Part shown: piece by piece, positions 216-31,384 of the stretch
Layout: each line of letters begins with the position of its first letter
Numbering within the stretch: position 1 is the first letter of the stretch
Origin: Patescibacteria group bacterium
GTDB taxonomy: Bacteria > Patescibacteriota > Patescibacteriia > UBA2591 > JAQUPP01
Reading direction: 5' to 3'
Assembly: GCA_028717225.1 (NCBI GenBank)
Contig: JAQUOF010000006.1
Coordinates: 1 to 33,393 of the forward strand
DNA: 33,393 bases
Position numbers and translations under genes: made by a program
Notes under the pieces: generated by a model
The model's input: the letters and a program-made list of their open reading frames with translations, nothing else
Databases searched by the model: none
What the model was told of the DNA's origin: nothing

Positions 216-608
216 TTAAAAATTAAAAAGATCATTTATTCTATTGCTATTTTTTAAGGCGTGCTCCCATATTCTTATAATTTTCCATCCAGCCTTTTTA
301 TAATACAGACTGACTAATTTATCCCTCTTTTTATTATTATTTATTTTATTAACCCAATAATCACGATTTGATTCTGGTATTCTGTAATGTTTTTTGCACC
401 CGTGCCAAAAACAAGAATCAACAAATATAACTATTTTCTTTGATGCTATAATTATATCGGGCTTGCCAAAATATTTAGAGCTGTTTTTTCTGTATTTTAT
501 GCCCTTTCCAGATAAAATTTTCCTAACGCTTTTTTCAAGTTTAGTGTCTTTGCTTTTTATCTTGCTCATTAAAGAGCTTCTAGCACTTTTAGTTATCTTA
601 TCTGTCAT
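216..608 (-). CDS. vsr: Very short patch repair (Vsr) endonuclease
   Basis: The 130-aa protein is full length for the family. Vsr nicks 5' of the T in T:G mismatches produced when 5-methylcytosine deaminates, which protects the genome at sites of its own C5 methyltransferase. Visible motifs are MSKIKSKDT near residue 14, GKPDI with Asp51 (catalytic Asp in E. coli Vsr), and DSCFWHGC with Phe67, Trp68 and His69 in the same numbering as E. coli, where the aromatic pair intercalates next to the mismatch. Asp64 replaces E. coli His64, which is common in family members with the VDGCFWHG form. The C-terminal W-x-x-x-x-I-W-E is also typical. The gene overlaps the end of the HinP1I-like gene by 4 bp, so it is probably co-translated with the restriction-modification unit. 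Confidence 0.93.
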   Translation of the reverse strand: MTDKITKSARSSLMSKIKSKDTKLEKSVRKILSGKGIKYRKNSSKYFGKPDIIIASKKIVIFVDSCFWHGCKKHYRIPESNRDYWVNKINNNKKRDKLVSLYYKKAGWKIIRIWEHALKNSNRINDLFNF

Positions 609-1378
609 TTTTTAATTTGATTAACTATTTCGGCTGGATTTATTTTAAATTGAAGCATATTTGCTGTTGGCCTGCCGTTATCCCCGCCTTTTCTTTGCAT
701 TGTTATTCTGCCTATTTTAATGCTTCCTTTGTCGGTTATTCTAACTTCGCCATTGCCATAAAAATTGATTATCACAGACATAGGCAATAAAGTCCACAAG
801 TTCTCTGGTTTTATATAAATTAGCATCCAGGAAGCAGAAAGTTTATCTCTGCCTTTTAAAATATCCGCTATAACTAAAAATTTATTGCTTTCAAAAAATT
901 CAATAATATCTTTTTTGGCCCGACTATCCATTTCGTCAAAAAACATCCTGCGAGAGTCTTTAAGTTTCTTTTTGTCTGGTCTTATTTCGCCAGTAAAAAG
1001 CTTTAAAGATTCAACTATATTTTTTGGCATCTTCCATAATTCAACGTATTTATCAACCCACCTCTTATCAATTTGATTGAATCCAGTCGGATTGCTAACT
1101 AATTTCACGGAAATATTTTCTGCGGCAATGACATCTTTTAAGTATATTTTTATTTTTACCTGAACATCTGTTTTATGAGAACCAGTTATTTTTATTGCTT
1201 CAACTTTTTCAATCTTGTCTAAATCATAATCCATTATCTTAAGCCAATCCTGAGCGTCTTTGTCTTTTTTCCAGTTATTGAATTTTTTAACAACATCGTC
1301 TTCATTTCTAAATCCCCCCTTTGCTGTTGAAGAACCTCTTTTTATTAATTCTTTGATATTGTTTAATTTTTGAGTCAT
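605..1378 (-). CDS. Type II restriction endonuclease, HinP1I family (predicted G^CGC)
   Basis: The 257-aa protein aligns along its full length with R.HinP1I as I remember it. Near-identical blocks are GSSTAKGGFRNE (15-26), SVKLVSNPTGFNQID (90-104), and the C-terminal KGGDNGRPTANMLQFKI (230-246). HinP1I cuts G^CGC as a type IIP enzyme; the adjacent methyltransferase is M.HhaI-like, which independently predicts GCGC. HinP1I's active site is described as S-D-x18-Q-x-K. Here the equivalent is Thr70-Asp71-x18-Ser90-x-Lys92, so spacing, Asp and Lys are kept but the Gln is replaced by Ser. Activity is therefore likely but not certain. The gene lies 4 bp downstream of the methyltransferase and overlaps vsr. 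No SD is seen. Confidence 0.92.
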   Translation of the reverse strand: MTQKLNNIKELIKRGSSTAKGGFRNEDDVVKKFNNWKKDKDAQDWLKIMDYDLDKIEKVEAIKITGSHKTDVQVKIKIYLKDVIAAENISVKLVSNPTGFNQIDKRWVDKYVELWKMPKNIVESLKLFTGEIRPDKKKLKDSRRMFFDEMDSRAKKDIIEFFESNKFLVIADILKGRDKLSASWMLIYIKPENLWTLLPMSVIINFYGNGEVRITDKGSIKIGRITMQRKGGDNGRPTANMLQFKINPAEIVNQIKK

Positions 1379-1382
1379 AAAT

Positions 1383-2429
1383 TTAAATTAGATTAACTTG
1401 TTTTAACTGAATTGTTTTTTTATTTATCGAAGACAACTTTCTTTTATTTTTTAATTTGGGATATTTTTTAATAATTTTAGCGAATATCGCTTTCAAAACT
1501 GGCACAGAAACGCTATCGCCAAATTGCTTATAGGCAATATTACGATTTTGGGGGAGTATAAAATTTTCTGGAAAACCTTGCATTCTCGCGCATTCTCTTG
1601 GGGTCAATTTGCGAACTTTGCCATCAATAAAATAAGCCCCAGTTTTGCTTGCCGCTCCGCCGCCATAAGCAGATAAGGTGATACCAGACGCATAAATTGA
1701 ATATACCCTTTCGCCCTGCCCGCCTTTGTTTAATTTGCCTATTTGCAAAGGTTTGCGAGGATTTTTCACCCCTTTTTCATTGCCATAGATGTCTATATCT
1801 GATCTATTTATATAACATTCTTTTGGCACAATTTGCTCATTTTCAAGAATATCATTTACAATTTTAATTTCATCTGTTTGGTTTGGGAATTTAAAACTAT
1901 TAACTCCCAAACTCTTTTTAAAAGCTACTATGTATATTCTTTCTCTTGCCTGCGATAATCCATAGTCGCTGGATTTTAAAATCTTAAAAAATGGCTTATA
2001 ACCTATATCATCTAAAACATTTAAAACGGCTTTAAGCGTATTGCCATTATCGTGTTTCGCGAAATTTTTAACATTTTCAAGAAATAGTATGTCTGGTTTA
2101 TGATGTTTAGCGATTCTCGCGACATCAAAAAACAAAGACCCTCTAATATCTTTAAACCCCAACCTTTTCCCAGATATACTAAATGCTTGACAGGGAAACC
2201 CAGCACATAAAATATCGTGCTCAGGAATATCCTTCTCTTTTATTTTAGTTATGTCTCCGTCGGGCAACTCACTAAAATTTTTTGAATAAATATCTTGAGA
2301 GTTTTTATCCCATTCAGAGCTAAAAACGCAAGTGCCGCCAAAATCTTCCAATGCCAACCTAAAACCGCCTATCCCAGCGAAGAGGTCTATAAAAGAAAAA
2401 GTTTTTTTGTTTAATTTTTGTTTTGGCAT
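1383..2429 (-). CDS. DNA (cytosine-5) methyltransferase, M.HhaI-like (predicted GCGC)
   Basis: The 348-aa protein carries all C5-MTase landmarks: motif I FIDLFAGIGGF (13-23, SAM binding), motif IV AGFPCQAFS with catalytic Cys80, motif VI ENVKNF (118-123), motif VIII QARERIYIV (160-168), motif IX RECARMQGFP (278-287) and motif X QFGDSVSVPV. The target-recognition region is diagnostic: KGGQGERVYS (235-244) then TLSAYGGG and KTGAYFIDGK match M.HhaI closely, including residues equivalent to HhaI Gln237 and Arg240. It should methylate the inner C of GCGC and protect against the downstream HinP1I-like nuclease. The start gives a HhaI-like N-terminal length. No SD is present; a promoter lies at 2488-2515. 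Confidence 0.95.
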   Translation of the reverse strand: MPKQKLNKKTFSFIDLFAGIGGFRLALEDFGGTCVFSSEWDKNSQDIYSKNFSELPDGDITKIKEKDIPEHDILCAGFPCQAFSISGKRLGFKDIRGSLFFDVARIAKHHKPDILFLENVKNFAKHDNGNTLKAVLNVLDDIGYKPFFKILKSSDYGLSQARERIYIVAFKKSLGVNSFKFPNQTDEIKIVNDILENEQIVPKECYINRSDIDIYGNEKGVKNPRKPLQIGKLNKGGQGERVYSIYASGITLSAYGGGAASKTGAYFIDGKVRKLTPRECARMQGFPENFILPQNRNIAYKQFGDSVSVPVLKAIFAKIIKKYPKLKNKRKLSSINKKTIQLKQVNLI

Positions 2430-15277: not shown

Positions 15278-15332
15278 AAAGAGCTCTCAATTTTAATCTT
15301 ACTTGATTAAAATCTTGAGCTCTTTATTTTTT
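15278..15332. terminator. Bidirectional intrinsic terminator between pth and the lipoprotein gene
   Basis: Stem AAAGAGCTC (15278-15286) with GAGCTCTTT (15317-15325), continued after three mismatches by another 9 bp (ATTTTAATC with GATTAAAAT), loop TTACTT. T-rich sequence follows on the plus strand and A-rich sequence precedes, so it can serve both convergent genes. Confidence 0.85.
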
Positions 15333-15765
15333 AAGGAATCTTCCATCCGTCTGTGTCTGTTACATCAATATTGCCTATTCTAAGACGGTGTTGTAGCCAG
15401 TCGCCGTGATCAAAACAGGCATTAACCGTAACTGATTTTCCATCTTCAACATTTCCTTCCCAGACCACCAACCATTTTGTTCCACCTTCTGCATAACCCG
15501 CAGATCTTTTAATTGAAATCCAAAGATCGTTTCCATTATTATTTTGAACTTTCATGGTTTGGACTTCTCCTGCTGTTGCTGGAAAAGTATATATAACCTT
15601 GACATTTAACTTCAACTTCGGATATTCATATATCGCCTGGTTGTCCACTAATGGTGCCGTCGGAGTCTTAGTACAGCCTGTTAAAGAAAATGCTAACAGA
15701 ATAACTAAACCTAATACAATCTTTGTGATGACTGCCTTTATCCGGATTGTTAAAATTTTATTCAT
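15331..15765 (-). CDS. Small secreted lipoprotein of unknown function
   Basis: 144 aa. A signal peptide with hydrophobic core IVLGLVILLAFS ends in lipobox L-T-G-C (Cys31), so the protein is lipid-anchored after cleavage. The mature part is a compact, beta-rich domain (V-W-E-G-N-V-E-D-G-K-S-V-T-V-N-A near residues 104-119) that I cannot assign. A strong SD (GGGGGAG, 5 nt before the ATG) is unlike the SD-less genes around it and matches the two secreted proteins at 18380 and 21086, suggesting common foreign origin. The tRNA-like gene lies 65 bp upstream on the same strand. Confidence 0.75.
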   Translation of the reverse strand: MNKILTIRIKAVITKIVLGLVILLAFSLTGCTKTPTAPLVDNQAIYEYPKLKLNVKVIYTFPATAGEVQTMKVQNNNGNDLWISIKRSAGYAEGGTKWLVVWEGNVEDGKSVTVNACFDHGDWLQHRLRIGNIDVTDTDGWKIP

Positions 15766-15829
15766 CTTCTCCCCCTCTTTTTTTAACTACTTTTTTTGTT
15801 TTTAATTTTATCAACGAACTTCGTACAAA

Positions 15830-15909
15830 TACCCGCCATTGGATTTGAACCAATGAACCTCCCTCCTCATATACGGGCAGGGTGCTCTTCCGGACTGAGC
15901 TAGGCGGGC
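15830..15909 (-). tRNA. tRNA-like gene with enlarged anticodon loop; anticodon not assignable
   Basis: Minus strand. The acceptor stem has 7 pairs, GCCCGCC (15909-15903) with GGCGGGT (15837-15831), one of them G-U. D arm GCTC-AGTCCGGAA-GAGC is canonical, including the GG of the D loop. T arm ATTGG-TTCAAAT-CCAAT is canonical. Between them are 29 nt instead of about 23. The best anticodon stem is CCCT/AGGG followed by a G-G mismatch, with a 12-nt loop (CCCGTATATGAG, 15877-15866) instead of 7. No U33-NNN-purine arrangement fits, so no amino acid can be assigned. CCA is not encoded. It may be a degenerate, processed or specialised tRNA. Confidence 0.65.
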
Positions 15910-15927
15910 AATTTTTTTTCAATTAAA

Positions 15928-16053
15928 TCCTCCACTTTTATGTCTATCAGCCCAAGGCCTACGCTTGACAAACAAGATCAACCTTGAATTACGACTACTT
16001 CCCAGTTAGGAGGGATGACTGGTTTTGTCGCTGATAGACAGAAAAGTGAAGAA
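15928..16053 (-). ncRNA. Structured RNA element upstream of the tRNA-like gene (unassigned)
   Basis: A long terminal stem pairs 15930-15951 with 16030-16051: 11 bp (15941-15951 with 16030-16040), one mismatch, then 7 bp (15933-15939 with 16042-16048) and two more. Within the 78-nt interior are CAAGG/CCTTG (15953-15957/15982-15986) around CTTG/CAAG, and CCAGT/ACTGG (16002-16006/16018-16022). On the minus strand it starts about 15 nt after the predicted start of the 16075-16103 promoter and ends 18 nt before the tRNA-like gene, so minus-strand transcription is favoured. I match it to no known RNA family. It could be a free small RNA or a leader of the tRNA/lipoprotein transcript. Confidence 0.55.
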
Positions 16054-16074
16054 TTTATTTTATTTTCTATATAA

Positions 16075-16103
16075 ATATTAGCATATTTTTTGCTTTTTGT
16101 CAA
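16075..16103 (-). promoter_or_regulatory. Near-consensus promoter for the structured RNA and tRNA-like gene
   Basis: Minus strand TTGACA, 17-bp spacer ending in TGC, TAATAT. Predicted start about 16068. It is the same architecture as the promoters at 18126-18154 and 21160-21188. Confidence 0.6.
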
Positions 16104-16167
16104 CCCCCTCGCCTATAACACTGATGAATACTATGTTTTATATTTTAATAATTTTAATATAATTTTC

Positions 16168-16223
16168 TTAAATTAAAAAATAGAGAACATACTTTTTGAC
16201 ATGTTCTCTATTTTTTAATTTAA
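16168..16223 (-). terminator. Intrinsic terminator of the 593-aa surface protein gene
   Basis: A 23-bp perfect hairpin (16168-16190 with 16201-16223, loop of 10) whose 3' arm on the minus strand contains a T6 run. It overlaps the stop codon at 16220-16222. Confidence 0.85.
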
Positions 16224-18001
16224 ATATTAGACAATCTTATCCAATTCGCCCCATCTGAAACCATTGTTCTTGTCTGCCATTGAGTGCCTAATTGATAAGT
16301 CATTGCGGCTCCATCTATTGTCTGGCCTGATGTTGTGGTATAGCCACACTGATTTGCCGAGCTGTCTATTTTTTTTATTGTGTATTCTCTTCCGGCAATA
16401 CCCACTGCCGTAGGAAGAGTAATTACAAAACCTCCTCCTGATGCATCACATAATATAATATCATCCGAAGCTGTTGCCGTGTAAGTTGAAGTTTTAGTTA
16501 TTATTGCTCTCGTAAAAGAACCATTGATATGAAGTGTAGAATTTGGCGCAGTCGTCCCAATGCCGACCTTGCCGGTATTTGCTATGGTTAAATTGGAAGT
16601 ATAAGCTGAAACCGTTGCACCGGCCGTGCCGCTTGATGCGGTTTGTATTCGCCAGGACCCATCTGATTTAAAATAAAGGCGTCCCGCATAACCATCCGCC
16701 ATATACATATCTCCGTTTGTACTATAATTTGCATTTGCCATTAACAATAATTCTTTATTAGTACTGAGTGTCATTCTTCCATTTACCTGTAATGCTGTAT
16801 ATACTCCGGGATTTGCTGTTCCGATTCCGACATTGCCGGCAAAATAATTTTTATCTGTTCCTGAAGCATAAACAGAACCATTGGAGTATAATCCCCAACC
16901 CGTACCGCCTACACCGGGATTAATAAAATAATTTGCATCATCACGGTCATAATAAGCGCCCGCCTGAATATTACTATTAACATCTAGTTTGGTGGCTGGT
17001 AATGTTGATCCAATACCAATGTTGCCTTCAAAATAATTTTTACTTAAATTTCCCTGAGAATAAATGCCATACCCCTCAACATCGGTTAATACTGTTGCTC
17101 TTATCGCTACTCCGGAATTACCTGACGAGCAATTAGTCACACCGACTATCGCGCCACCCGTTGCTGTTGAATTATCCCAAGAACAACCGCCGCTTCCCAT
17201 TTCTCCCAAAATACCATAGCCGCTTCCTCCATTGGCTCGCGCTACTCCCCAAACGCCCCGAGTAAAACCCTCGCCATAAAGACCGGCTGAATTAACATTG
17301 CTAGCTTGAATAAAAACACCTGCCGGTTGAAAAGGAAGAACCCCGTGACTCCAATCTCCATATCCGTCATTTTTTTCAATAACTTCCAAATGATGCGTTG
17401 GTTCTGTTGTCCCAATACCGAGATTATAATTAAAATAACCAATTCCTCCTACTTCCAATTTACCGACAACTGCCAGATCATCTGCGGAACTTGCGATGCT
17501 TGGAGAAAAACCGGTCGGACCGATTCGTGTATAGGTATTGGCCGTCTCGGGATATAAAATCGCAATGCCCTCATTTTGAGTATTTACGACAAAACTTGAA
17601 ATTCCTTTTGAACGAATATCTCCTGCAACATCCAGTTTGACAGAAGGTATTGTTGATCCGATACCGACATTGCCGGAATTATTATTATAAATATTAGCGC
17701 CGTTGGACATCCAAAGACCAATTGAGCCCGTACCCGTGGCAATGGAATCAACATATTGTTTTGTCGCCGCATCCGTGGATTCTTCCGGAGTACCTAAATT
17801 AAAAATTTTTAAAGGCGTAGTATTTCCCATTTTTATCGCTTTATCGGAAAGAATATATTGGCTTGGTACGGTTGCTCCCGCCCTTTCTATTCCCAAACAA
17901 ATAAAAAATAAAAAAATCAGAAAATAAACAATTTTTAAAGAAAATATTTGTTTTTTCCCACCTTCGCCAAAAACTTTGGCGGACTTCATTTTATTGCCCA
18001 T
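16220..18001 (-). CDS. Secreted modular tail-fibre-like surface protein (593 aa, five GNVGIGTT-type repeats)
   Basis: The signal sequence shares KKQIFS-x-KI-x-YF-x-IFL with the 1176-aa paralogue. A segment STDAATKQYVDSIATGTGS (about 77-95) is the linker seen in phage tail fibres and CPR surface proteins. Five G-N-V-G-I-G-T-T-type repeats (for example near residues 112, 196, 328) mark beta-rich modules. Residues about 220-327 form a module (GLYGEGFTRGVWG to GYGIYSQGN) near-duplicated in the 1176-aa protein. The C-terminus (about 490-593) is a separate beta domain with DIILCDASGGGFVITLP and SDGANW; no S74 chaperone domain is present. Probably a trimeric or fibrous adhesin, but no partner is known. 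No SD; own promoter and terminator. Confidence 0.82.
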   Translation of the reverse strand: MGNKMKSAKVFGEGGKKQIFSLKIVYFLIFLFFICLGIERAGATVPSQYILSDKAIKMGNTTPLKIFNLGTPEESTDAATKQYVDSIATGTGSIGLWMSNGANIYNNNSGNVGIGSTIPSVKLDVAGDIRSKGISSFVVNTQNEGIAILYPETANTYTRIGPTGFSPSIASSADDLAVVGKLEVGGIGYFNYNLGIGTTEPTHHLEVIEKNDGYGDWSHGVLPFQPAGVFIQASNVNSAGLYGEGFTRGVWGVARANGGSGYGILGEMGSGGCSWDNSTATGGAIVGVTNCSSGNSGVAIRATVLTDVEGYGIYSQGNLSKNYFEGNIGIGSTLPATKLDVNSNIQAGAYYDRDDANYFINPGVGGTGWGLYSNGSVYASGTDKNYFAGNVGIGTANPGVYTALQVNGRMTLSTNKELLLMANANYSTNGDMYMADGYAGRLYFKSDGSWRIQTASSGTAGATVSAYTSNLTIANTGKVGIGTTAPNSTLHINGSFTRAIITKTSTYTATASDDIILCDASGGGFVITLPTAVGIAGREYTIKKIDSSANQCGYTTTSGQTIDGAAMTYQLGTQWQTRTMVSDGANWIRLSNI

Positions 18002-18042
18002 AATATTTTTATAAAATAATAATTAAAGTTTAACTATTATTT

Positions 18043-18071
18043 ATTTAAGCATATTTTAAGGGTTCTGTCAG
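18043..18071 (-). promoter_or_regulatory. Promoter of the 593-aa surface protein gene
   Basis: Minus strand CTGACA, 17-bp spacer ending in TGC, TTAAAT. Predicted start about 18036. Confidence 0.58.
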
Positions 18072-18125
18072 CCCCCTTTGCCATTTTTGACTCTAAAAAG
18101 GCTTTATTATCGGTCTTTTAAGGGA

Positions 18126-18154
18126 TTGACAAAATCAAAATTTTATGCTAATAT
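18126..18154 (+). promoter_or_regulatory. Promoter of the clostripain-like gene
   Basis: TTGACA, 17-bp spacer ending in TGC, TAATAT. Predicted start about 18161, giving a 220-nt structured leader. Confidence 0.65.
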
Positions 18155-18162
18155 TAATTTAT

Positions 18163-18191
18163 AAATGACTCGAAATAGAAGTCATTTTTTT
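18163..18191 (+). terminator. Terminator-like hairpin at the start of the clostripain-like leader (possible attenuator)
   Basis: AAATGACT (18163-18170) pairs with AGTCATTT (18180-18187), loop of 9, followed by a T run to 18191. The T run can alternatively pair with AAAAAA at 18192-18197. It lies at the very start of the predicted transcript, so it could attenuate transcription or stabilise the 5' end. Confidence 0.5.
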
Positions 18192-18322
18192 AAAAAACAA
18201 ACATACCCACGCAGCAAATCCGAATAAAGTATAATCAAAAATAGAAAGCCATTTTCACGGTACACGCCTTCGGCTTAATCTATTTTAAAACTTAATTACT
18301 TAATGGATTTGTACGGGGTGCT

Positions 18323-18362
18323 CCAATTTGTAATGAAATTTTTTAAAATTTCGACAAATTGG
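18323..18362 (+). promoter_or_regulatory. Long hairpin directly upstream of the clostripain-like gene SD
   Basis: CCAATTTGT (18323-18331) pairs with ACAAATTGG (18354-18362); inside, GAAATTTT pairs with AAAATTTC (18335-18342/18345-18352). It ends 6 nt before the SD (GGGAGG, 18369-18374). Confidence 0.55.
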
Positions 18363-18379
18363 GCAAAAGGGAGGAAAAA

Positions 18380-20050
18380 ATGTTTATAGCTCTTTACATT
18401 TTATTAGTTTCTGCAATTTCAACAAAAGCAGCAGTTCCTTGGACAATGTTTTTTTACTTGTCCGGAGACAATGATTTACAGGAAGGGACGGAAAAATATG
18501 TTAAATCAATTATTGCCAATTTGGATTCCATATCTAAACCATATCCGATAAATATTGCCATAGAAGTAGATGCGTTTGATGACAGCATCCCAACCCGAAG
18601 ATATTTTTTCTTCGGAGATTCTATGATAAAAGAAAATATTGACGGAGAGGTTAATATGGCAGACGAAAAGGAATTAATTGGTTTCACTCAGGCGGCTATT
18701 CAGAGAATGGGTGCCACGTCTAAGTATGCCTTGATTATTTACGGCCACGGCTGTAATTGGAAAGGAATAATCCAAGACAAAAATCCATTTGATTGGATGG
18801 GAATTCCTAATCAACGTTTCCAAACAGCAATTAGTGGAATCAAGGAGATAATCGGCCAGAACATTAATGTTCTGGGGTTATTGGCCTGTGAAATGCAAAT
18901 ATGGGAAGTTCAGATGGAATTACAGGGCAAGGTGGATCTAACAGTAGGTTGTTGGCAGTCCGCTTTTGCGCCGGAAAAAACCGGTTACTTTACCGGGTTT
19001 TTGAAAAATTCTACTTGGACACCGGAAAGCTTGGCTGTAGCAATATCTAAAACATACGGTTTCTCGGCCATCCGAACTCCTATGATTTCCAATTTGACTC
19101 AAGATGTAAATCAGTTGGGACTGATTCTCAAATCAGCCCCGGATAGTGTCAAGAAAAGAATTATTGACAATGAAATTATTGTCAGTAAATCAAGATCTTG
19201 GACCAGACAGATAGATCTTGGAGCTTTTGTTACTAAAATAGAAGGAGATTCTTTGTTGGATAATTCTGTTAGAGCAATAGCTGCTGATATAAAAAGTGAT
19301 ATTCAAAAAATGACTATCTACAGCCCTGATTCATTATTAGTTAAATCGGCCATAGGTATTTATTTCCCTCAAATTGCAAGAAACTATGAAGCTGATTATG
19401 GTAAAATTCTTGCAAGCACAACTTGCTGGGATGAATATCTGAATACCAATGACTTCCCATATTATTGGTGTTATGGTTGGCAGACCGGTTATCCTTTGTG
19501 GAAACCAAGTATTAATGATACAACTCGAAAAAATTACTGGCGATTTTCCGGAGGCGGAGTGAAACAGACAAAAATTCATTTTGCTTATCTCAATCTGTCA
19601 GACGGAGACACGCTATTAATCTATGATAGCAAAGACACCGTCCGATATACCGGAAAAAAAGAAAGTTTTTTTACTCCGATAATGGAAGCTAATTTCACGG
19701 TTGAATATAAGGGGCAATCCCTTATACCGGCGGATTGTTTTTTTCTGGATAATCTTGCTTGGACAACCGACGCGAAATTGGCAATTGAGGAGGAGAAAAT
19801 TACGCCCAAACCCGCTGATATTTCCGTTTGGCCAAATCCTTTCAGGAATGAATTAAACATTACGGCAAGTTTAGAATCGGAAGCCATTATCTATGACATA
19901 TCCGGAAGGGTTATTAAGAAATTATCTTTGAAAGGAAAATCTACTTGTTGGAATGGAAAAGATGGATTTGGGAAAACAGTTAATTCGGGAATATATTTCC
20001 TTAAAATCGGAAATAAATCTCCGAAAAAAATTGTTAAATTAACAAATTAA
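18380..20050 (+). CDS. Clostripain-like (C11 family) secreted protease with C-terminal T9SS-type sorting-like domain
   Basis: I place the start at 18380, not the upstream TTG at 18359, because GGGAGG at 18369-18374 gives a good SD spacing and the protein then begins with a clean signal peptide (MFIALYILLVSAISTKA). This gives 556 aa. The C11 catalytic pair is visible: His123 in IIYGHGCNW and Cys170 in NVLGLLACEMQ. The early F-Y-L-S-G-D-N-D-L block is also typical. The last 75 residues (SVWPNPFRNELNI, YDISGRVIKK, WNGKDGFGKTVNSGIYFLK) match Por_Secre_tail/FlgD_ig-like sorting domains. A C11 protease would cut after basic residues outside the cell. A strong SD and this tail suggest transfer from a Bacteroidetes- or FCB-like donor. 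Confidence 0.85.
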   Translation: MFIALYILLVSAISTKAAVPWTMFFYLSGDNDLQEGTEKYVKSIIANLDSISKPYPINIAIEVDAFDDSIPTRRYFFFGDSMIKENIDGEVNMADEKELIGFTQAAIQRMGATSKYALIIYGHGCNWKGIIQDKNPFDWMGIPNQRFQTAISGIKEIIGQNINVLGLLACEMQIWEVQMELQGKVDLTVGCWQSAFAPEKTGYFTGFLKNSTWTPESLAVAISKTYGFSAIRTPMISNLTQDVNQLGLILKSAPDSVKKRIIDNEIIVSKSRSWTRQIDLGAFVTKIEGDSLLDNSVRAIAADIKSDIQKMTIYSPDSLLVKSAIGIYFPQIARNYEADYGKILASTTCWDEYLNTNDFPYYWCYGWQTGYPLWKPSINDTTRKNYWRFSGGGVKQTKIHFAYLNLSDGDTLLIYDSKDTVRYTGKKESFFTPIMEANFTVEYKGQSLIPADCFFLDNLAWTTDAKLAIEEEKITPKPADISVWPNPFRNELNITASLESEAIIYDISGRVIKKLSLKGKSTCWNGKDGFGKTVNSGIYFLKIGNKSPKKIVKLTN

Positions 20051-20064
20051 TTTTAAACAAAAAC

Positions 20065-20095
20065 AAAGCCCTCACTTGTTACGTGAGGGCTTTTT
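20065..20095 (+). terminator. Intrinsic terminator of the clostripain-like gene
   Basis: AAAGCCCTCAC (20065-20075) with GTGAGGGCTTT (20083-20093), loop of 7, then T5. Confidence 0.92.
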
Positions 20096-20100
20096 AAAAT

Positions 20101-20127
20101 AAAAAAGGGCAGGTTTTTAGCCTGCCC
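20101..20127 (-). terminator. Intrinsic terminator of the 312-aa secreted protein gene
   Basis: On the minus strand GGGCAGG-CTAAAAA-CCTGCCC (20127-20107), followed by T6 (20106-20101). Confidence 0.9.
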
Positions 20128-20147
20128 GTAATAGAAATCGTATTCGA

Positions 20148-21086
20148 TTATTTCAACAAAATTATTTTCTTTTGAGTCGTAGTTTGTCCGGTTCTAAATT
20201 TCAGAAAATATATTCCGTTCGGCATTTGCTGACCCTTTTCGTCTTTTCCATCCCAATGAGTGGTAACCTTTTTGATCGTTCGACCACTGATGTCAATAAT
20301 TTCACCTTTGAAATTTTTTGACGCATTAATTTGGAAATAAGACGTGGATGGATTTGGAAAAACCGAGACCTGAATCAGATCCTTAACCTTGGCTTCTTCT
20401 GCAGCAACTGAACTTTCACCGCAAGAATCAATGATAGTGGTGTCCCCGTCTGTAGTGATACATCTTATATTGTCAAGATAAAAACCATCGAGACCCTTGC
20501 CCTGATCGTTCAAACGAACAAATATCAATAAAGTGTCCAATCTCACACTACAGACAGAATCAGAATTTTGAACCCAGACAAATTTTCCTCCATGTTTATC
20601 TTCCCATTTTGATGTGTCAAAACCACTGATTCCATTCTTCTCTGCAAAAATTTTCCCATTAGAAATTATAAAGAACTGCGCTAATACATAAGGATATTCA
20701 TACTCAAATGGTGAATTTGAAAATGCTTTTCTTTCTCTGGCAAAAGAGCAAGAATCTTCAAGATTAGAATTGTAGGCTTTCATCACCAAAAAATATCCCC
20801 TTCTAGTATTATAATTACTAATATCCATAATTCTAATGGATTTAATACTATTAAAAAGATTCCCATGATTTAGTGAGGTATCCACAACAATTGTATCTTT
20901 ATAACAACCTGATAAAAAAATATCTTTAACGCATTGAGGCGCCATGTCATAAGTCATCTGCTTCCATTCACCGGCAAAGCTTAAACCAGATATAACCGTT
21001 AAAACTATCACCGCTATAGCGGGATCCCATCTTCGAAATTTTTTAATGAGTGATGGGACAACTGAAAATAATTTGTTAAAGAACAT
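20148..21086 (-). CDS. Secreted protein with C-terminal T9SS-type sorting-like domain (312 aa)
   Basis: An N-terminal hydrophobic segment (about 23-38, IAVIVLTVISGLSFAG) suggests export. The middle (about 45-235) looks like a beta-sandwich with six or more cysteines (K-D-I-F-L-S-G-C-Y-K, I-R-C-I-T-T, I-D-S-C-G-E); I recognise no catalytic motif, and a carbohydrate-binding-like or adhesin role is possible. The tail (about 242-312) has SVFPNPSTSYFQIN, IDISGRTIKK, WDGKDEKGQQMPNGIYFLK, the same sorting-like domain as the clostripain-like protein convergent to it. Strong SD (GGGGG) 5 nt from the ATG, unlike native genes. Confidence 0.8.
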   Translation of the reverse strand: MFFNKLFSVVPSLIKKFRRWDPAIAVIVLTVISGLSFAGEWKQMTYDMAPQCVKDIFLSGCYKDTIVVDTSLNHGNLFNSIKSIRIMDISNYNTRRGYFLVMKAYNSNLEDSCSFARERKAFSNSPFEYEYPYVLAQFFIISNGKIFAEKNGISGFDTSKWEDKHGGKFVWVQNSDSVCSVRLDTLLIFVRLNDQGKGLDGFYLDNIRCITTDGDTTIIDSCGESSVAAEEAKVKDLIQVSVFPNPSTSYFQINASKNFKGEIIDISGRTIKKVTTHWDGKDEKGQQMPNGIYFLKFRTGQTTTQKKIILLK

Positions 21087-21090
21087 TGTT

Positions 21091-21114
21091 CCCCCTTTTC
21101 TGCCTATCAGCAGA
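21091..21114 (-). promoter_or_regulatory. Leader hairpin and strong SD of the 312-aa protein gene
   Basis: Minus-strand TCTGC-TGATAG-GCAGA hairpin (21114-21099) followed by AAAAGGGGGA as SD. The GCTGATAG-R-CA-N-AAAAG string resembles the 3' arm of the structured RNA near 15933-15951. Confidence 0.5.
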
Positions 21115-21159: not shown

Positions 21160-21188
21160 ATTAAAGCATATTTTAGCGAAAATGTCAA
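21160..21188 (-). promoter_or_regulatory. Promoter of the 312-aa secreted protein gene
   Basis: Minus strand TTGACA, 17-bp spacer ending in TGC, TTTAAT. The leader is about 65 nt and contains AGCTAA/TTAGCT and TCTGC/GCAGA hairpins. Confidence 0.6.
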
Positions 21189-22029: not shown

Positions 22030-25000
22030 TTATTTTTTACAAACATCCGCATCCGGTTTTAATTGGCAGACAATATTTTTCAAATCTTCGACTTGTCCCG
22101 CCAAGGCAGTGATTTCTTTTTGTTGTTCTTTAATGGCATTTACGGTCAGTGCAGTGATTGATGTATCGTCTAAACTCCAATAACCGCTATCCTGCAAGGC
22201 GCTGGCTTCCGGCAAAACACTTTTTACATTCTGCGCCGAGAATCCCACATGAACAAAATCTTCTCCTTTGTAAGAAAATCTTATCGGATTGATTGCGGAA
22301 AGCGCGGCTAATCCGCCTTGATAATATCCATAAATATTTTTTAATCGCTCATCTGATGTACAAATTATATCACCTGAAGTATTTGCAGAGAGTGTACCGG
22401 CTGTTTTACAAGTTGATTGGCGAATAGTTCCGGTAACATCCAGTGCCTGTCCCGGAGTAGTCTGTCCAACGCCGACTTGACCATTATTTATTGTCAAACC
22501 CAAGACAGCATTTGTAGGGAAAACACCACTAGCAGTACCATCTGAAGTATAAAAATCAATAGCATTATTGGCCGCACCGGAGCCATTATGACGAGTATGA
22601 ATAAAATTTGAATATTGTCCGGTTGTGCTCCAGCCCAAAGCAATAGTTGCCCTTGTAAAAGCTGTCGCATTATCTCCATTAATTAAATGTAATTTAGTTG
22701 TTGGATTAGTTGTCCCAATACCGACATTGCCTGTAGATGCAATTCTCATTCTTTCTTTTATATAATCTCCAGTTGCTCTGGTTCCAAATGCAAGATATCC
22801 ACTGTCATTACTATCCGTTGAATTTTCTTTTGCTCCTAAAATACCAGCCCATGTTACAACTGTATTTGATGCTGAATTATATTTACCGGCAAATCCGATT
22901 CCTCCGCCAACATTTATTGCCGATGCATTTTCAGAAGCAACTAACAATGGAACAACATCAGTTGCACCGCCGCCAAATAAATACCCGCCGCTTGCCGCAG
23001 TCATTGTTGAAGAGAATACGCCTCTTGCAGCAGTATTTAAGGCAATAGCACCTCCATTACCCCTAACATCTAAAGGTGAAGCCGGGCTTGTTGTCCCAAT
23101 ACCGACGTTACCAGTTTGTTCTTTTATTACTAATCGTTGTGTCCATGCGGCGGAATTATACCTAGTGGCAATACCAAAATAATCACCTGAATTGTTGGTG
23201 TAAAATTTAGTGGCATATCCAGAGTAATTACTTGTCATTTCAATACCATTAACAGCTTCGGGGCCATTTGAAGCATCTGGAACGCTAAGTAAAATGTAAC
23301 CGCTATTAGTAGCTGCCTGGGTTTGACCTTGACTTCCGATTGTAAGTTGAGCAGCCGGATTTGTCGTTCCAATGCCGACTTTGCCGTCAGAGGCAATTCT
23401 TATTCTTTCTGAATTATTGGTCATTATTTTTAAATTTCCATCACTCTCCCAATCTAAACCGGTATCAGTATCGCCAATGGCTAATTTTATTCCGGGATCT
23501 GTTGTCCCAATACCAATAGGTCCTTCAAAATAATTTTTACTATCCTCTCCTTGAGAATAAATACCATAACCACTAACATTCTCTGGTAATATTGCTCTTA
23601 TTGCTACAGAATTTCCCTGTGTACAACCTTTTGCCCAGCCAACTACTGCACCGCCACTACCACCAGTCATATAACACATTCCATCATCTGATCCCATTGT
23701 TCCTAAGACACCATAACCAGACATATTGGCAGCTCTACTGTGTCCCCAAACACCTCGAGTAAGACCCTCACCATAAAGCCCTGTTGACATTGAAGGATGA
23801 ATATTATTAAAATAACCCGCGGGAGAAGCAAAAACTCCAGGAACAAGATCATCGGCAGATCCATGTACATCTGATATAACCTCCAATCTATGAGTTGGGG
23901 CAGTTGTTCCAATTCCAACCATGCCATCCTGGGTTTCCTGTCCTACAACTTCGTCATTAGATAAAGTTAAAAGATCTCCATCAGTAACACCCTCAACACT
24001 ATTGTTCCAAAAACGCAAAGAATCTGTGCCGGAATCATGATAAATCGCCCAATGTTTATTTGCTCCAGCCACGCTTTGAATATCAATTTCAGCATTTACA
24101 CTGGTATTATAAACATGTAATTTTTTATTTGGACTTGATGTTCCAATACCAACATTGCCATCATTATGTAAAACCAATTGATTTGTATTTAACGCAGAGC
24201 TACCCGATGTATATAAAAATAAATTAGTCGGAACTTTTGTTCCAGATGCACCATCTTGAGTTGCCTGGATTACAGCGCCCCAATCTGAATTATTTCCATT
24301 ATCCACTCCTTTAAATTCAACACCTCCAAGCTCTTCTGAAGTTGCTGTTTGTGACATTGATCCAATAGTATTACTTGCAGATTTTCTAAATACCATTTGT
24401 ATCCTATTAGCCGCTGTTGATGAATAAGTATCCCAATATACCATTCCATCCGCTACAGCTGTATGAAGAATTCCTGCCGGGATTGTTGTTCCAATACCGA
24501 CATAGCCACCTGCTTTTATTCTCATTGCCTCAGCGCCTTCTGGCACAAAAACAATATCATGATCTCCAACCCCAGAACCACCGGTGGTAAAAATAATCGG
24601 ATTTGCACCTGTATTATCATTATTTGTTATACTTCCATCATGACTAATAACAGCATAACGGCCTGCGTCATATTCAATTTTTAATTGAGGACTGGATGTG
24701 CTTTTTATATGCAACGGATTACTCGGAATTGTTGTTCCGATACCGATGTAACCACTTGTGTTAATCACCATGTCATCAGTGGTACCCGCTCGTCTGAATA
24801 CTAAATTATCACTTCCGGTAGTATCATTTAAGCCCACAAACCATTTTTCACTTGCTTGACGATCTAACCGCAAGCCTGTGTAACGGCGAGTTGCGCTGTC
24901 ATTATTAATTCTTGATATAGCCGTGGTTCCGGAATCCCAGACATCAAACTTGTATCCGGGTATTGTTATTCCAATACCGACATAGCCGGTGGCATTTTGA

Positions 25001-25560
25001 TATAAACCAAGAGTAGCGCCGGCATTAGTATATATTCCTAATTCGCCAGTATTTGTATTCCATCCTACTATTTGAGAACCCAATGCGCGGTTTGCTTGCG
25101 TGTAAAAATCAAGAGAAGCAGATCCTGCTGATGTTGGCGAATATGTCATAATGCCTACGCCCCGCTGACTGGAATTAGCCACAACTTGTAACGGCTGACT
25201 AGGAGCTGAGCTTCCAATGCCCACATTACCTGTATCCAAAATAACAAAACTATTAGCCGGTACATTGGTTGGATAAATATAAGTAGTGCCGTCCATCCAG
25301 AGACCGACTGCACTTGTACCCGTACCTAATACACTGGACTTAACATAGTCAATTGTTGCGGCATTTGAACCAATACCAGCGCCAATAGTAAGATTAGTGA
25401 TTTCGCCTCCACCCGATTTCAAAAAATTAATACCATCAATAGTAGTATCAAAATTAGTGGTTTTCGCTCCCACATTTTTTATTCCCCAAAAACTGAAACA
25501 AATAAAAATTAAAAAAATAGAAAAATAAATAATTTTTGAAGAAAATATTTGTTTTTTCAT
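22030..25560 (-). CDS. Giant secreted tail-fibre-like protein with S74 endosialidase-chaperone domain (1176 aa)
   Basis: Signal peptide homologous to that of the 593-aa paralogue (KKQIFSSKIIYFSIFLIFIC). About eleven G-x-V-G-I-G-T-T repeats spread from residue 114 to 1035 head beta-rich modules. Residues about 197-275 (IPGYKFDVWDSGTTA to TTDDMVI) are almost duplicated in the 1103-aa protein; residues about 568-680 are shared with the 593-aa protein. The C-terminus 1069-1176 is an S74 intramolecular chaperone: S-D-E-R-L-K with the autocleavage Ser1069, VGFSAQNVKSVLPEA, and a final coiled coil (KEQQKEITALAGQVEDLKN). In phage fibres this domain drives trimerisation and is then cleaved off. Probably a trimeric surface fibre. 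No SD; promoter at 25609-25637. Confidence 0.87.
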   Translation of the reverse strand: MKKQIFSSKIIYFSIFLIFICFSFWGIKNVGAKTTNFDTTIDGINFLKSGGGEITNLTIGAGIGSNAATIDYVKSSVLGTGTSAVGLWMDGTTYIYPTNVPANSFVILDTGNVGIGSSAPSQPLQVVANSSQRGVGIMTYSPTSAGSASLDFYTQANRALGSQIVGWNTNTGELGIYTNAGATLGLYQNATGYVGIGITIPGYKFDVWDSGTTAISRINNDSATRRYTGLRLDRQASEKWFVGLNDTTGSDNLVFRRAGTTDDMVINTSGYIGIGTTIPSNPLHIKSTSSPQLKIEYDAGRYAVISHDGSITNNDNTGANPIIFTTGGSGVGDHDIVFVPEGAEAMRIKAGGYVGIGTTIPAGILHTAVADGMVYWDTYSSTAANRIQMVFRKSASNTIGSMSQTATSEELGGVEFKGVDNGNNSDWGAVIQATQDGASGTKVPTNLFLYTSGSSALNTNQLVLHNDGNVGIGTSSPNKKLHVYNTSVNAEIDIQSVAGANKHWAIYHDSGTDSLRFWNNSVEGVTDGDLLTLSNDEVVGQETQDGMVGIGTTAPTHRLEVISDVHGSADDLVPGVFASPAGYFNNIHPSMSTGLYGEGLTRGVWGHSRAANMSGYGVLGTMGSDDGMCYMTGGSGGAVVGWAKGCTQGNSVAIRAILPENVSGYGIYSQGEDSKNYFEGPIGIGTTDPGIKLAIGDTDTGLDWESDGNLKIMTNNSERIRIASDGKVGIGTTNPAAQLTIGSQGQTQAATNSGYILLSVPDASNGPEAVNGIEMTSNYSGYATKFYTNNSGDYFGIATRYNSAAWTQRLVIKEQTGNVGIGTTSPASPLDVRGNGGAIALNTAARGVFSSTMTAASGGYLFGGGATDVVPLLVASENASAINVGGGIGFAGKYNSASNTVVTWAGILGAKENSTDSNDSGYLAFGTRATGDYIKERMRIASTGNVGIGTTNPTTKLHLINGDNATAFTRATIALGWSTTGQYSNFIHTRHNGSGAANNAIDFYTSDGTASGVFPTNAVLGLTINNGQVGVGQTTPGQALDVTGTIRQSTCKTAGTLSANTSGDIICTSDERLKNIYGYYQGGLAALSAINPIRFSYKGEDFVHVGFSAQNVKSVLPEASALQDSGYWSLDDTSITALTVNAIKEQQKEITALAGQVEDLKNIVCQLKPDADVCKK

Positions 25561-28072: not shown

Positions 28073-31000
28073 TTAATCTTTAACAAAATTCGTCCAATCT
28101 TGATAATCTTTTCTCGGCGCGGTTAAGCGATAAGAAATTTCTCCAAATTGATCGCCATAAATTGTCAATTGATTGCCTGATTTTTCATACCAAACCTTGC
28201 CATTAAAATTCGGAGTTAACATAACAACTGTATCATCTAAATTTTTAGATGAGCTTTGCCAGAAAAGCCATAAATCAGAACCTGTTTTTAAATTATCAAA
28301 ATCAATTTCGTATTTTGTATTTTGAATTTTTATCACGCCCGTGGTTTCAGTCCGAACACCTCCGGCAAAATCAGAAACATAAGTCGCATATTTTATTCCA
28401 TCAATTTCATAAACCGGATCAATTGTGCTGACAGTAAGTTTATTAACACCAATAATACTGGCTCCATTCATATTTAGTTGACCATCTATTTGCGCAGTAC
28501 CATTAACATATAATTTTGTTACCGGATTTGTCGTCCCAATGCCGACATTGCCGGCAAAATAGTCATAAGTTTCTCCTGTATTATAAATACCATATTTTGT
28601 ATAACTACCTCCCGCATTAGCTAAATTGGAATAAAAACCAAAAGCACTGCCGCTGCCGGCTCCTCGCGGAATTGAAACCACACCAACCACATTACTGCCA
28701 GCCTCTACTCCTCCATTAGCATCAGCCCAAAGACCTATATAGCCGCCGTAACCGCCATTCCATGCTGATTGCGCCACGGGAATATCGGCCGCATAATTAT
28801 TTCCTGACATTATTCCCAATCCCAAACTTCTTGGATAAGAAGTCCCGGTAGTGGTAAAATCATAGCCTATTTGTGTTGACCAGCCATTTTTAATAACATT
28901 TAAACCAATAGCACTACTATAACTTTTTACTTCTAGAAGATGCGTTGGCCCGGTTGTCCCGATACCGACATTGCCACCCATAAAAATTCCGGCATAACCA
29001 GAAGTAGTAGTGCCATGAATAGCTGTGCCCGCGTTACTAATTCCATAAAGACCATAACCGCCACTGCCGCTGGTACTTTCGCCATAAACTCCAGACCCGG
29101 TGCTTGAACTGGTTACACCGTAAACGCCCCTGGCCGCTCCTGTATCACTAATACCATAAATTCCATATTTACCAGAACCGGTTGAAACACCATTAATGGC
29201 ATGGTTTGTACTTGTCGCATAAAGATCTCCACTAACATCTAATTTATACAATGGCACGGTTGTCCCGATGCCGACATTACCGGAATTAGCAGCATAAATA
29301 TTACCAGTCATACTGCCTCGCCAAAGACCAACACTGCCCGTACCTGTTGCGATAGCATCAACATAACCTTTATTAGCAGCATAAGTATCCGGATCGCCGG
29401 CTCCCAGTGGCGTTAAACCGGTAACATAATGAGAACCGCCGCCTTGGAAAGTAAGTCCGCCGCCATCAATAACTAATTTATTAGCACTTGGTCCGGTTGT
29501 CCCAATACCGACATTGCCGGTATTCGGTTGAAGAATTAAATTTCCGCCATAAGCCGAACCGCTGTCGCTAGTTTGTAAAATCGCCGCTCGATTAGATGTG
29601 GTAGCCGCGCCTATAATTGAAAAATTAAGTTTAAAAGGATATGACGCATCATTAGTCACCATGGAAATTCCGTCCCGTTCCGTGGTATCTGTTTTTGCGT
29701 ATGGTATGGCTACGGATAATTGCGATATCGGCGCGGTTGTTCCGATACCAACATAACCGCTCGTGCTAATCACCATATCATCAGTAGTACCTGCTCGTCT
29801 GAATACTAAATTATCATTACCGGCAGTAGCGTTCATGCCCATAAACCATTTCTCTGAAGCTTCTCTGTCTAATCGCAAACCGGTATAGTAATGGGTTGCA
29901 CTATTATTATTAATTCTAGCCATAGCCGTGGTCCCGGAATCCCAAACATCAAATTTATATCCGGGTATTGTCGTTCCAATGCCGACATTACCACCTGCCG
30001 GATTAAGAGCTAAATTTGAAACACCAGCGCCGGCCATTGCATATAATGAAGCAATAGTATTGCCATATAAATAATTAAGGTTAACAGAATAACTAGCGGT
30101 TGATGATCTTACGTCCAGGCCTGAATCTGAATAAACCGTAAGGGGTCGTTGCGGAATAGATGTTCCAATGCCGACATAGCCCGCGCTTGAAATACGCATT
30201 CGTTCTGTCGGGACTCCGCCGTTAATTCTTGTGCCGAAAAGCAATGCTCCGGCATAATCGTTATCGTTTACGTTTTCTTTAATACCCCAAATATTGGAAA
30301 AATCTTGAGTGGCAGAACCTGCGGCCGCATATTTGCCGCCGAAAGATACTCCGCCGCCAACACCTTGAGCTGCGGTCGCGGAATCCTGAAGAACGAGATT
30401 TCTTCTCGCACTAGTACCATCAACAACCGACACTCCTAAAACATGAAGCAAGGCCAAAGGTGTTGCGGTTGTGCCAATTCCGACATTGCCGGAATTATTG
30501 TTATAAATATGATTGCCGGTAGCTGTTTGAGTCCAATAATTAGTACCTCCCACAAGATTGGTATAAGCGCCATTATTTTCTGAAACTTTAAATGCATTGG
30601 CTGTTGAATCGAAATATATTCTGCCCTGGCCGGCAGGAGAAGTTGCCGGAGCAGCCATGCCACGAGTTGTTAAAGCGCCATTAATATCTAAAATCGTATC
30701 GGGAGCTGTTGTCCCGATACCTAAATTCGCGCCCGTCAATCTCATCATTTCACGATTTGTGCCATCATTGCCATAAAATGAAATAAATCCTGATCCCCCA
30801 AGACTTTTAATACTCACTTCATTCCCTGAGGAATAAATTAATTTTGTTGTTCCACTATTCAAATACAAATTACTGCCAATTTGAACATTACCATTAACTG
30901 TTAAGGGATATACTGGGATCGCAGTCCCGATACCGACATTGCCACCCATAAAAATACCAGAATAACCAGAACTAGTACTCCCGTAAATACCCGTCCCGGA

Positions 31001-31384
31001 GCTACTAACACCATAAACACCATAGCTATTACTACCCGTACTTTCACCATAAACTCCTACTCCATTACTTGCACCGGTTAAACCGTATACCCCTCTAGAG
31101 GTATCAGAATAACCATAAACACCATAGCTTCCTGAATTATAAGTATATCCTGTAAACGCATTCCCGCTAATAGGTGTTATTGTACCAATACTTAAATCAC
31201 CCTCCTTACTTTGGCTGGTTGTACCGATATTAATCGGCGCTGAAGCGTTTCCGTCCGGCGGATATAAAGTAGGTTCCGTCCAAGCAGCAAAAACTACCAT
31301 TGCGCTGGCGCCAATAATTAAAATAGCGATAAAAAAACTTTTTATCAAAAATTTATTAGTTATCGCTTTACGGGAAATTTTCAT
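28073..31384 (-). CDS. Giant secreted tail-fibre-like surface protein without S74 domain (1103 aa)
   Basis: Signal segment FLIKSFFIAILIIGASAMVVFAAW, then P-P-D-G-N-A-S-A-P-I-N-I-G-T-T (about 41-55), a motif familiar from CPR surface proteins. About ten G-N-V-G-I-G-T-T repeats follow. A Gly/Ser/Tyr-rich module (YGVYGYSDTSRGVYG to GIFMGGNVGIG) occurs at about residues 80-153 and again at about 735-812. Residues about 472-546 match the 1176-aa protein's 197-275. The C-terminus (about 990-1103) is a different beta domain ending ISYRLTAPRKDYQDWTNF; no autocleaving chaperone is present. Probably a surface fibre or adhesin. It is next to minor-pilin-like genes. No convincing SD. Confidence 0.83.
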   Translation of the reverse strand: MKISRKAITNKFLIKSFFIAILIIGASAMVVFAAWTEPTLYPPDGNASAPINIGTTSQSKEGDLSIGTITPISGNAFTGYTYNSGSYGVYGYSDTSRGVYGLTGASNGVGVYGESTGSNSYGVYGVSSSGTGIYGSTSSGYSGIFMGGNVGIGTAIPVYPLTVNGNVQIGSNLYLNSGTTKLIYSSGNEVSIKSLGGSGFISFYGNDGTNREMMRLTGANLGIGTTAPDTILDINGALTTRGMAAPATSPAGQGRIYFDSTANAFKVSENNGAYTNLVGGTNYWTQTATGNHIYNNNSGNVGIGTTATPLALLHVLGVSVVDGTSARRNLVLQDSATAAQGVGGGVSFGGKYAAAGSATQDFSNIWGIKENVNDNDYAGALLFGTRINGGVPTERMRISSAGYVGIGTSIPQRPLTVYSDSGLDVRSSTASYSVNLNYLYGNTIASLYAMAGAGVSNLALNPAGGNVGIGTTIPGYKFDVWDSGTTAMARINNNSATHYYTGLRLDREASEKWFMGMNATAGNDNLVFRRAGTTDDMVISTSGYVGIGTTAPISQLSVAIPYAKTDTTERDGISMVTNDASYPFKLNFSIIGAATTSNRAAILQTSDSGSAYGGNLILQPNTGNVGIGTTGPSANKLVIDGGGLTFQGGGSHYVTGLTPLGAGDPDTYAANKGYVDAIATGTGSVGLWRGSMTGNIYAANSGNVGIGTTVPLYKLDVSGDLYATSTNHAINGVSTGSGKYGIYGISDTGAARGVYGVTSSSTGSGVYGESTSGSGGYGLYGISNAGTAIHGTTTSGYAGIFMGGNVGIGTTGPTHLLEVKSYSSAIGLNVIKNGWSTQIGYDFTTTGTSYPRSLGLGIMSGNNYAADIPVAQSAWNGGYGGYIGLWADANGGVEAGSNVVGVVSIPRGAGSGSAFGFYSNLANAGGSYTKYGIYNTGETYDYFAGNVGIGTTNPVTKLYVNGTAQIDGQLNMNGASIIGVNKLTVSTIDPVYEIDGIKYATYVSDFAGGVRTETTGVIKIQNTKYEIDFDNLKTGSDLWLFWQSSSKNLDDTVVMLTPNFNGKVWYEKSGNQLTIYGDQFGEISYRLTAPRKDYQDWTNFVKD

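Follow-up and report, generated by a model that had tools for sequence, protein, structure and literature searches.

The window, i.e., the whole 33,393-nt stretch of DNA analysed here, is contig C6 of an 864-kb genome (G000; 41 contigs, 96.6% complete, 1.7% estimated contamination), assigned to the CPR/Patescibacteria on the basis of its markers and of the 0.5-1.4-Mb genomes with which it groups. A strong SD sequence is confirmed before three of its genes, which encode a 144-aa lipoprotein, a C11 protease and a 312-aa protein. These sites had been reported in a first-pass annotation, which described nearly all other window genes as SD-less. That description holds as well: none of the remaining 24 called genes has a strong, properly spaced SD, EngA and a 206-aa gene being preceded by just weak G-rich stretches. 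The three genes and their surrounding elements are the following:

15279..15328, minus strand: long terminator-like hairpin 3' of the lipoprotein gene (sequence reading; class-level terminator enrichment after SD genes)
15331..15765, minus strand: 144-aa lipoprotein, a gene of the SD class, with a lipobox-like LAFSLTGC
15769..15777, minus strand: SD of the lipoprotein gene, GAGGGGGAG, in the start context GAGGGGGA-GAAG-ATG (start 15765)
16075..16103, minus strand: promoter TTGACA-17-TAATAT, 5' of tRNA-Tyr (15829-15910) and the lipoprotein gene (sequence reading)
16104..16186, minus strand: repeat copy of ~75 nt (..ATCAGTGTTATAGGCGAGGGGG) that runs up to the -35 box (pattern matching)
18126..18154, plus strand: promoter TTGACA-17-TAATAT of the C11 protease gene, with a long leader (sequence reading)
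18323..18362, plus strand: leader hairpin CCAATTTGT...ACAAATTGG, immediately 5' of the protease SD (sequence reading)
18368..18374, plus strand: SD AGGGAGG of the protease gene, in AGGGAGG-AAAAA-ATG (start 18380)
18380..20050, plus strand: 556-aa clostripain-family (C11) protease with a T9SS-type tail (PF03415 4.9e-11, PF18962 8e-8)
19826..20038, plus strand: T9SS-type-A-like C-terminal domain of the protease (TIGR04183 32 bits, cut-off 23)
20065..20097, plus strand: intrinsic terminator of the protease gene (sequence reading)
20100..20128, minus strand: intrinsic terminator of the 312-aa gene, GGGCAGGCTAAAAACCTGCCCTTTTTT (sequence reading)
20148..21086, minus strand: 312-aa predicted exported protein with a T9SS-type tail (PF18962 6e-11)
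20160..20363, minus strand: T9SS-type-A-like C-terminal domain of the 312-aa protein (TIGR04183 46.5 bits)
21090..21099, minus strand: SD of the 312-aa gene, AAAAGGGGGA, in AAAAGGGGGA-ACA-ATG (start 21086)
21098-21114, minus strand: hairpin TCTGC..GCAGA, 5' of the SD of the 312-aa gene (sequence reading)
21160..21188, minus strand: promoter TTGACA-17-TTTAAT of the 312-aa gene (sequence reading)

The lipoprotein has no match among Pfam and NCBIfam profiles, and in codon usage its gene ranks at the 0.7 percentile relative to non-SD genes. The protease matches PF03415 with 43 bits (cut-off 26), which places it in the C11 family; its candidate catalytic residues, His123 (YGHGCNW) and Cys170 (LxACxMQ), are kept in the aligned congener protein. 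The T9SS-type tails annotated on the protease and the 312-aa protein are borne out, both scoring above the TIGR04183 cut-off. Single-sequence structure prediction yields no confident fold for the 312-aa protein (pLDDT 34) or the 144-aa lipoprotein (pLDDT 49).

Further structured elements lie in the leaders. Between the repeat/promoter and tRNA-Tyr, a structured leader (GTCTATCAGC...GCTGATAGAC, 15930-16060, minus strand) is conserved in the congener; it has no Rfam match, the tRNA alone scoring above threshold in the Rfam scan. Directly 3' of the protease promoter, a hairpin is followed by T's (AAATGACT...AGTCATTTTTTT, 18160-18195, plus strand) and may serve as an attenuator; the congener has a comparable hairpin next to the SD.

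The congener, a sister species with a genome in 2 contigs (G001), harbors at the same locus LCP, EngA, Pth, the lipoprotein, a 291-aa relative of the 312-aa protein, a tail-fibre-like protein, the C11 protease and a cupredoxin. All three window SD genes have SD-led counterparts there, among syntenic neighbours, the 291/312-aa gene having moved to the opposite side of the protease. In view of this synteny, recent transfer of the block, which the first-pass annotation had proposed, is not supported and was rejected, as was assembly chimerism, which it had raised and against which the synteny also speaks. Identity between the two genomes amounts to 98% for EngA and 94% for LCP, and to about 32% (31.5%) for the lipoprotein, 33% for the 312-aa protein and 59% for the protease. 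A scan for the protease in named genomes, viral contigs and plasmids retrieved no true relative, and none outside the genus; this one scan thus pointed to no donor.

A genome-wide class of SD-led genes

SD-led genes were surveyed among 330 genes of the host genome (21 stretches, ~416 kb sampled) and 800 genes of the congener (~970 kb). They number 27/330 and 89/800, respectively, and form one class, scattered and clustered genome-wide; the SD sites first noted in the window are thus real, but they do not form a local block. Two further members of the same order display 0 SD-led genes out of 154 (G453) and 5 out of 75 (G426). GGAGG is found at -18..-4 in 14/330 genes of the host genome vs 1/330 at the control position -50..-36, and in 65/800 vs 3/800 genes of the congener. 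This positional excess indicates that the SD sites are not due to chance. Their spacing is tight (4-6 nt before ATG), and neighbouring SD genes form 31 adjacent pairs in the congener, against 9.2 expected.

The content of the class is mixed and includes tail proteins, lipoproteins, SLT and SPFH proteins, nucleotide enzymes, acyl carrier proteins and many small unknowns. Since many of these genes look cytosolic, the class is not simply that of exported proteins, as had been suggested from the window. A phage origin was considered and rejected, as the family listing of 110 SD proteins reveals no phage structural-gene pattern. In both genomes, stem-loops precede many of the SDs. A boxA-like leader motif (GTTCTTTAAAA/GTACCTTAAAA), A-rich and unmatched to any rRNA leader, occurs in 17/73 SD leaders vs 12/574 others.

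Many SD genes resemble self-contained units. A consensus promoter lies within 150 nt of 37% (host genome) and 52% (congener) of them, vs 4% and 6.5% of other genes; terminator-like hairpins follow 30% and 44%, vs 6% and 7%; and the upstream gap spans 134-155 nt, vs 44-50 nt. Some SD genes have no recognisable promoter or terminator. The promoters of SD genes resemble those of non-SD genes, which implies either CPR-like donors or promoters that have adapted. The core motif of the ~75-nt repeat recurs 5' of several SD genes in the genus, including the tRNA-Tyr/lipoprotein unit of the window; 11 of 12 pattern matches in the samples of the two genomes are credible copies, and 938 kb of other class genomes contain 0 copies.

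This architecture might by itself dictate the presence of an SD, which would be needed by monocistronic mRNAs with long leaders and dispensable for operon-internal or leaderless genes, thus marking transcript type and not origin. The long leaders, wide upstream gaps and far more frequent promoters of SD genes fit such a rule, which we nonetheless consider quite improbable in view of the gene distribution. Relative to other genomes, which were sampled in part (a sister-family sample and the 938 kb of class genomes), SD genes are overwhelmingly accessory. Homologues in the sister-family sample exist for 0/27 SD genes vs 82/303 others (27%; p=7e-4) of the host genome, and for 3/89 vs 178/711 (25%; p=2e-7) of the congener. 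SDs precede 8/349 genes with a homologue in the 938-kb class sample and 81/451 genes without one. Even when first-of-unit genes alone are compared, SDs remain tied to accessory genes (56/204, vs 6/145 conserved; p=4e-9), and behind a strict promoter and a 22-90-nt leader the SD-led count is 37:13 for accessory and 1:9 for class-conserved genes, in small numbers. An architecture rule also leaves the codon dialect of the class unexplained.

Codon usage, which the first-pass annotation had recommended comparing, sets the class apart. SD genes differ from the core (p=8e-7) and from non-SD accessory genes (p=2e-20), the latter being indistinguishable from the core (p=0.8). The deviation is common to both species (r=0.82) and ~3-4x sampling noise. 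No GC shift was found in SD genes: their GC and GC3 equal those of the rest of the genes, which speaks against a recent compositional jump.

Alien-looking codon usage, together with the 1.7% contamination estimate, is also what an assembly or binning artefact joining foreign contig pieces to a CPR genome would produce. The chance of this is very slight, given that the homologous arrangement exists in the independent 2-contig genome and that SD genes are interleaved with core genes on many contigs.

Reciprocal pairs between the two species have a median identity of 43% for SD genes vs 92% for others (p=1e-5), and the SD is kept in 14/16 pairs. That the SD persists while the coding sequences diverge is compatible both with selection on the SD and with repeated import. 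At 4-fold sites, most low-identity SD pairs are 0.35-0.58 identical vs 0.71 for the rest, a difference to which poor alignment may contribute and which suggests older coalescence or replacement.

T9SS-type tails in the CPR class

TIGR04183 tails above cut-off are carried by four proteins in the host genome and four in the congener, all with a strong SD. They are found in 97/381 genomes of the CPR class vs 10/380 across the phylum. Across 20 regions sampled in 17 further class genomes, 15/21 tail genes are SD-led vs 20/252 of their neighbours (p=6e-11); among neighbours with a signal-peptide-like start, the count is 8/59. The order member G453 has two tail genes as well. In genome G047 (L031, L049, L052), tail proteins have no SD and display typical Bacteroidota tails; they probably lie on contaminant contigs and were left out. 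A correlation between tails and an altered anti-SD was considered, as four tail-bearing genomes first seemed altered, and was rejected: G022 is canonical, and the 97/381 distribution needs no such link.

The tails had been assigned to bacteria with an outer membrane. This assignment does not hold for the present lineage, given their frequency in the class and the profile searches: SprA is undetected in the host genome, the congener, G204 and G022, with a Bacteroidota positive control at 2463 bits, and Omp85/BamA is undetected in these four and in G090, while present in a Bacteroidota genome and 7 controls. As in the T9SS type-A proteins of Bacteroidota/FCB (TIGR04183, PF18962), the C-terminal domain scores above curated cut-offs on predicted exported proteins; here, in contrast, neither SprA nor Omp85 is detected in the host genome and its congener. 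We infer that the tails are T9SS-type domains separated from their secretion system, with a surface or adhesive role. Since they are common in the CPR class, and no T9SS core is detected in the members checked, such tails should be taken as proof of neither a T9SS nor contamination.

The 16S rRNA 3' end and the origin of the SD class

The 16S rRNA of the congener ends in CACCUCA, not CACCUCC (GGAACACCTCATTTAGAGG instead of GGATCACCTCCTTT; anti-SD CACCUCAUUU). The 3' ends of G426 and G453 likewise read CCUCA, with flanking changes across the three genomes (L075, which is the congener, L106 and L107). In the class, 91/115 genomes match the 16S pattern, and nearly all among the matches listed read CCTCC. 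Further 3'-end variants in CPR 16S genes are TATCTCC (L111) and CACTTCT (L113). The 16S gene is absent from the assembly of the host genome, for which we infer the altered tail, as we do the donor origin, the timing and the SD function in the host proposed below. No publication linking the anti-SD to Patescibacteria turned up in a literature search.

At the base opposite the changed 16S position, SD genes of the congener carry G (GGAGG) in 65 cases and T (TGAGG) in 3. Their mean pairing energy is -12.6 kcal/mol with the canonical tail vs -6.9 with their own, and non-SD genes display no preference for either. The SDs thus fit canonical ribosomes best, and a core of 4-6 bp is left with the own tail.

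Several features speak for a foreign origin of the SD class: its accessory distribution, its clustering, its codon dialect, and SDs that fit the canonical anti-SD better than the own one. The reading that we regard as probable is that of a pool of self-contained cassettes, derived from SD-using donors, which has long resided and turns over fast in a lineage that has moved past SD pairing. In many members, a cassette comprises its own consensus promoter, a leader of ~30-60 nt, a perfect canonical SD spaced 4-6 nt from ATG, a single ORF and an intrinsic terminator. The host order otherwise makes little use of SD pairing, and in those members that were examined its 16S 3' end has changed from CACCUCC to CACCUCA. 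Acquisition of the class probably dates from before, or from about the time of, the separation of the two known species, and may have recurred afterwards. With about 4-6 bp formed with the remaining CCUC core, the SDs likely still recruit ribosomes and would be retained, with rapid turnover or swapping of the coding parts.

Alternatively, the class might be native, with SD pairing retained in a regulated gene subset, for instance by a 16S tail exposed in some states. This would be analogous to the bS21-free ribosomes of Flavobacterium, a precedent documented in PMC9976891, with codon dialect and SD both reflecting the translation regime. It would explain the SD conservation in diverging orthologs equally well, and the tight spacing, the codon deviation coherent in two species and the SD-led tail genes of 17 other class genomes agree with it. 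We nevertheless hold it to be unlikely, as the SDs match the canonical and not the own anti-SD, and the genes are overwhelmingly accessory and clustered. Moreover, the F. johnsoniae mechanism is essentially limited to rpsU (PMC9976891), and the rpsU studied here has no spaced SD: its upstream sequence is TATTATAATATAAGGT-ATG, with TATAAT a few bases 5' of the start, so that the gene (L029 1480, minus strand) appears leaderless, unlike in Bacteroidia. The special translation class envisaged in the first-pass annotation therefore stands as a coherent genome-wide SD class, and not as a regulated system.

The bS21/SD control of Bacteroidia, with an SD-scarce genome and a strong SD mainly on rpsU (PMC9976891), is akin to the present case in that few genes carry strong SDs in an SD-scarce genome. 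It differs in that about 8-11% of genes are concerned here, strong SD on rpsU is not found, and the anti-SD core is changed in the lineage. Category iv of PMC10783764 gathers SD-scarce organisms lacking CCUCC, and CCUCA is listed there among the variants of archaea still using SD. The present lineage shares with that category the scarcity of SDs and the altered 16S core; what sets it apart is the sharply separate SD-rich accessory minority.

The cassette reading also invites comparison with mobile genes elsewhere, likened here by description. The SD class may be likened to the horizontally acquired "Class III" genes of E. coli, defined by codon usage, in being accessory and in having a codon dialect distinct from the core. 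In the present case, the dialect is accompanied by a canonical SD, although SDs are scarce in the lineage, and often by a promoter and a terminator, and GC is unshifted. Integron gene cassettes, usually devoid of their own promoters, are likewise single-gene units in an accessory pool. Here, a ~75-nt repeat precedes some units.

Taken more broadly, a single CPR genus may house two translation dialects, an SD-less core with a changed anti-SD and coherent, fast-turning canonical-SD cassettes (a large class, either of portable genes under selection for expression in many hosts, or of genes regulated as a second class), including T9SS-type-tail surface proteins without a T9SS; we advance this only tentatively, and rather doubt it in this full form. 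In a lineage with scarce SDs and an altered anti-SD, the canonical SD is a simple sequence mark for a coherent accessory gene pool of Patescibacteria, a group about whose gene exchange and host-interaction proteins little is known. With this mark, one can test whether the anti-SD change isolates the genome from imports, or whether imports work via residual pairing.

Other variable regions of the window lie outside the SD class. At 216-2429 (minus strand), a Vsr-like endonuclease, a probable restriction enzyme and a cytosine methyltransferase are encoded, the two larger genes having no match in the congener; this is probably a restriction-modification island. Fast divergence is also observed in some non-SD exported proteins. 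Two large tail-fibre-like proteins with NVGIGTT repeats (22030-25560 and 28073-31384, minus strand), one of them with an S74 chaperone, are 34-36% identical to their congener counterparts and have no SD. They are fast-evolving surface proteins outside the class.
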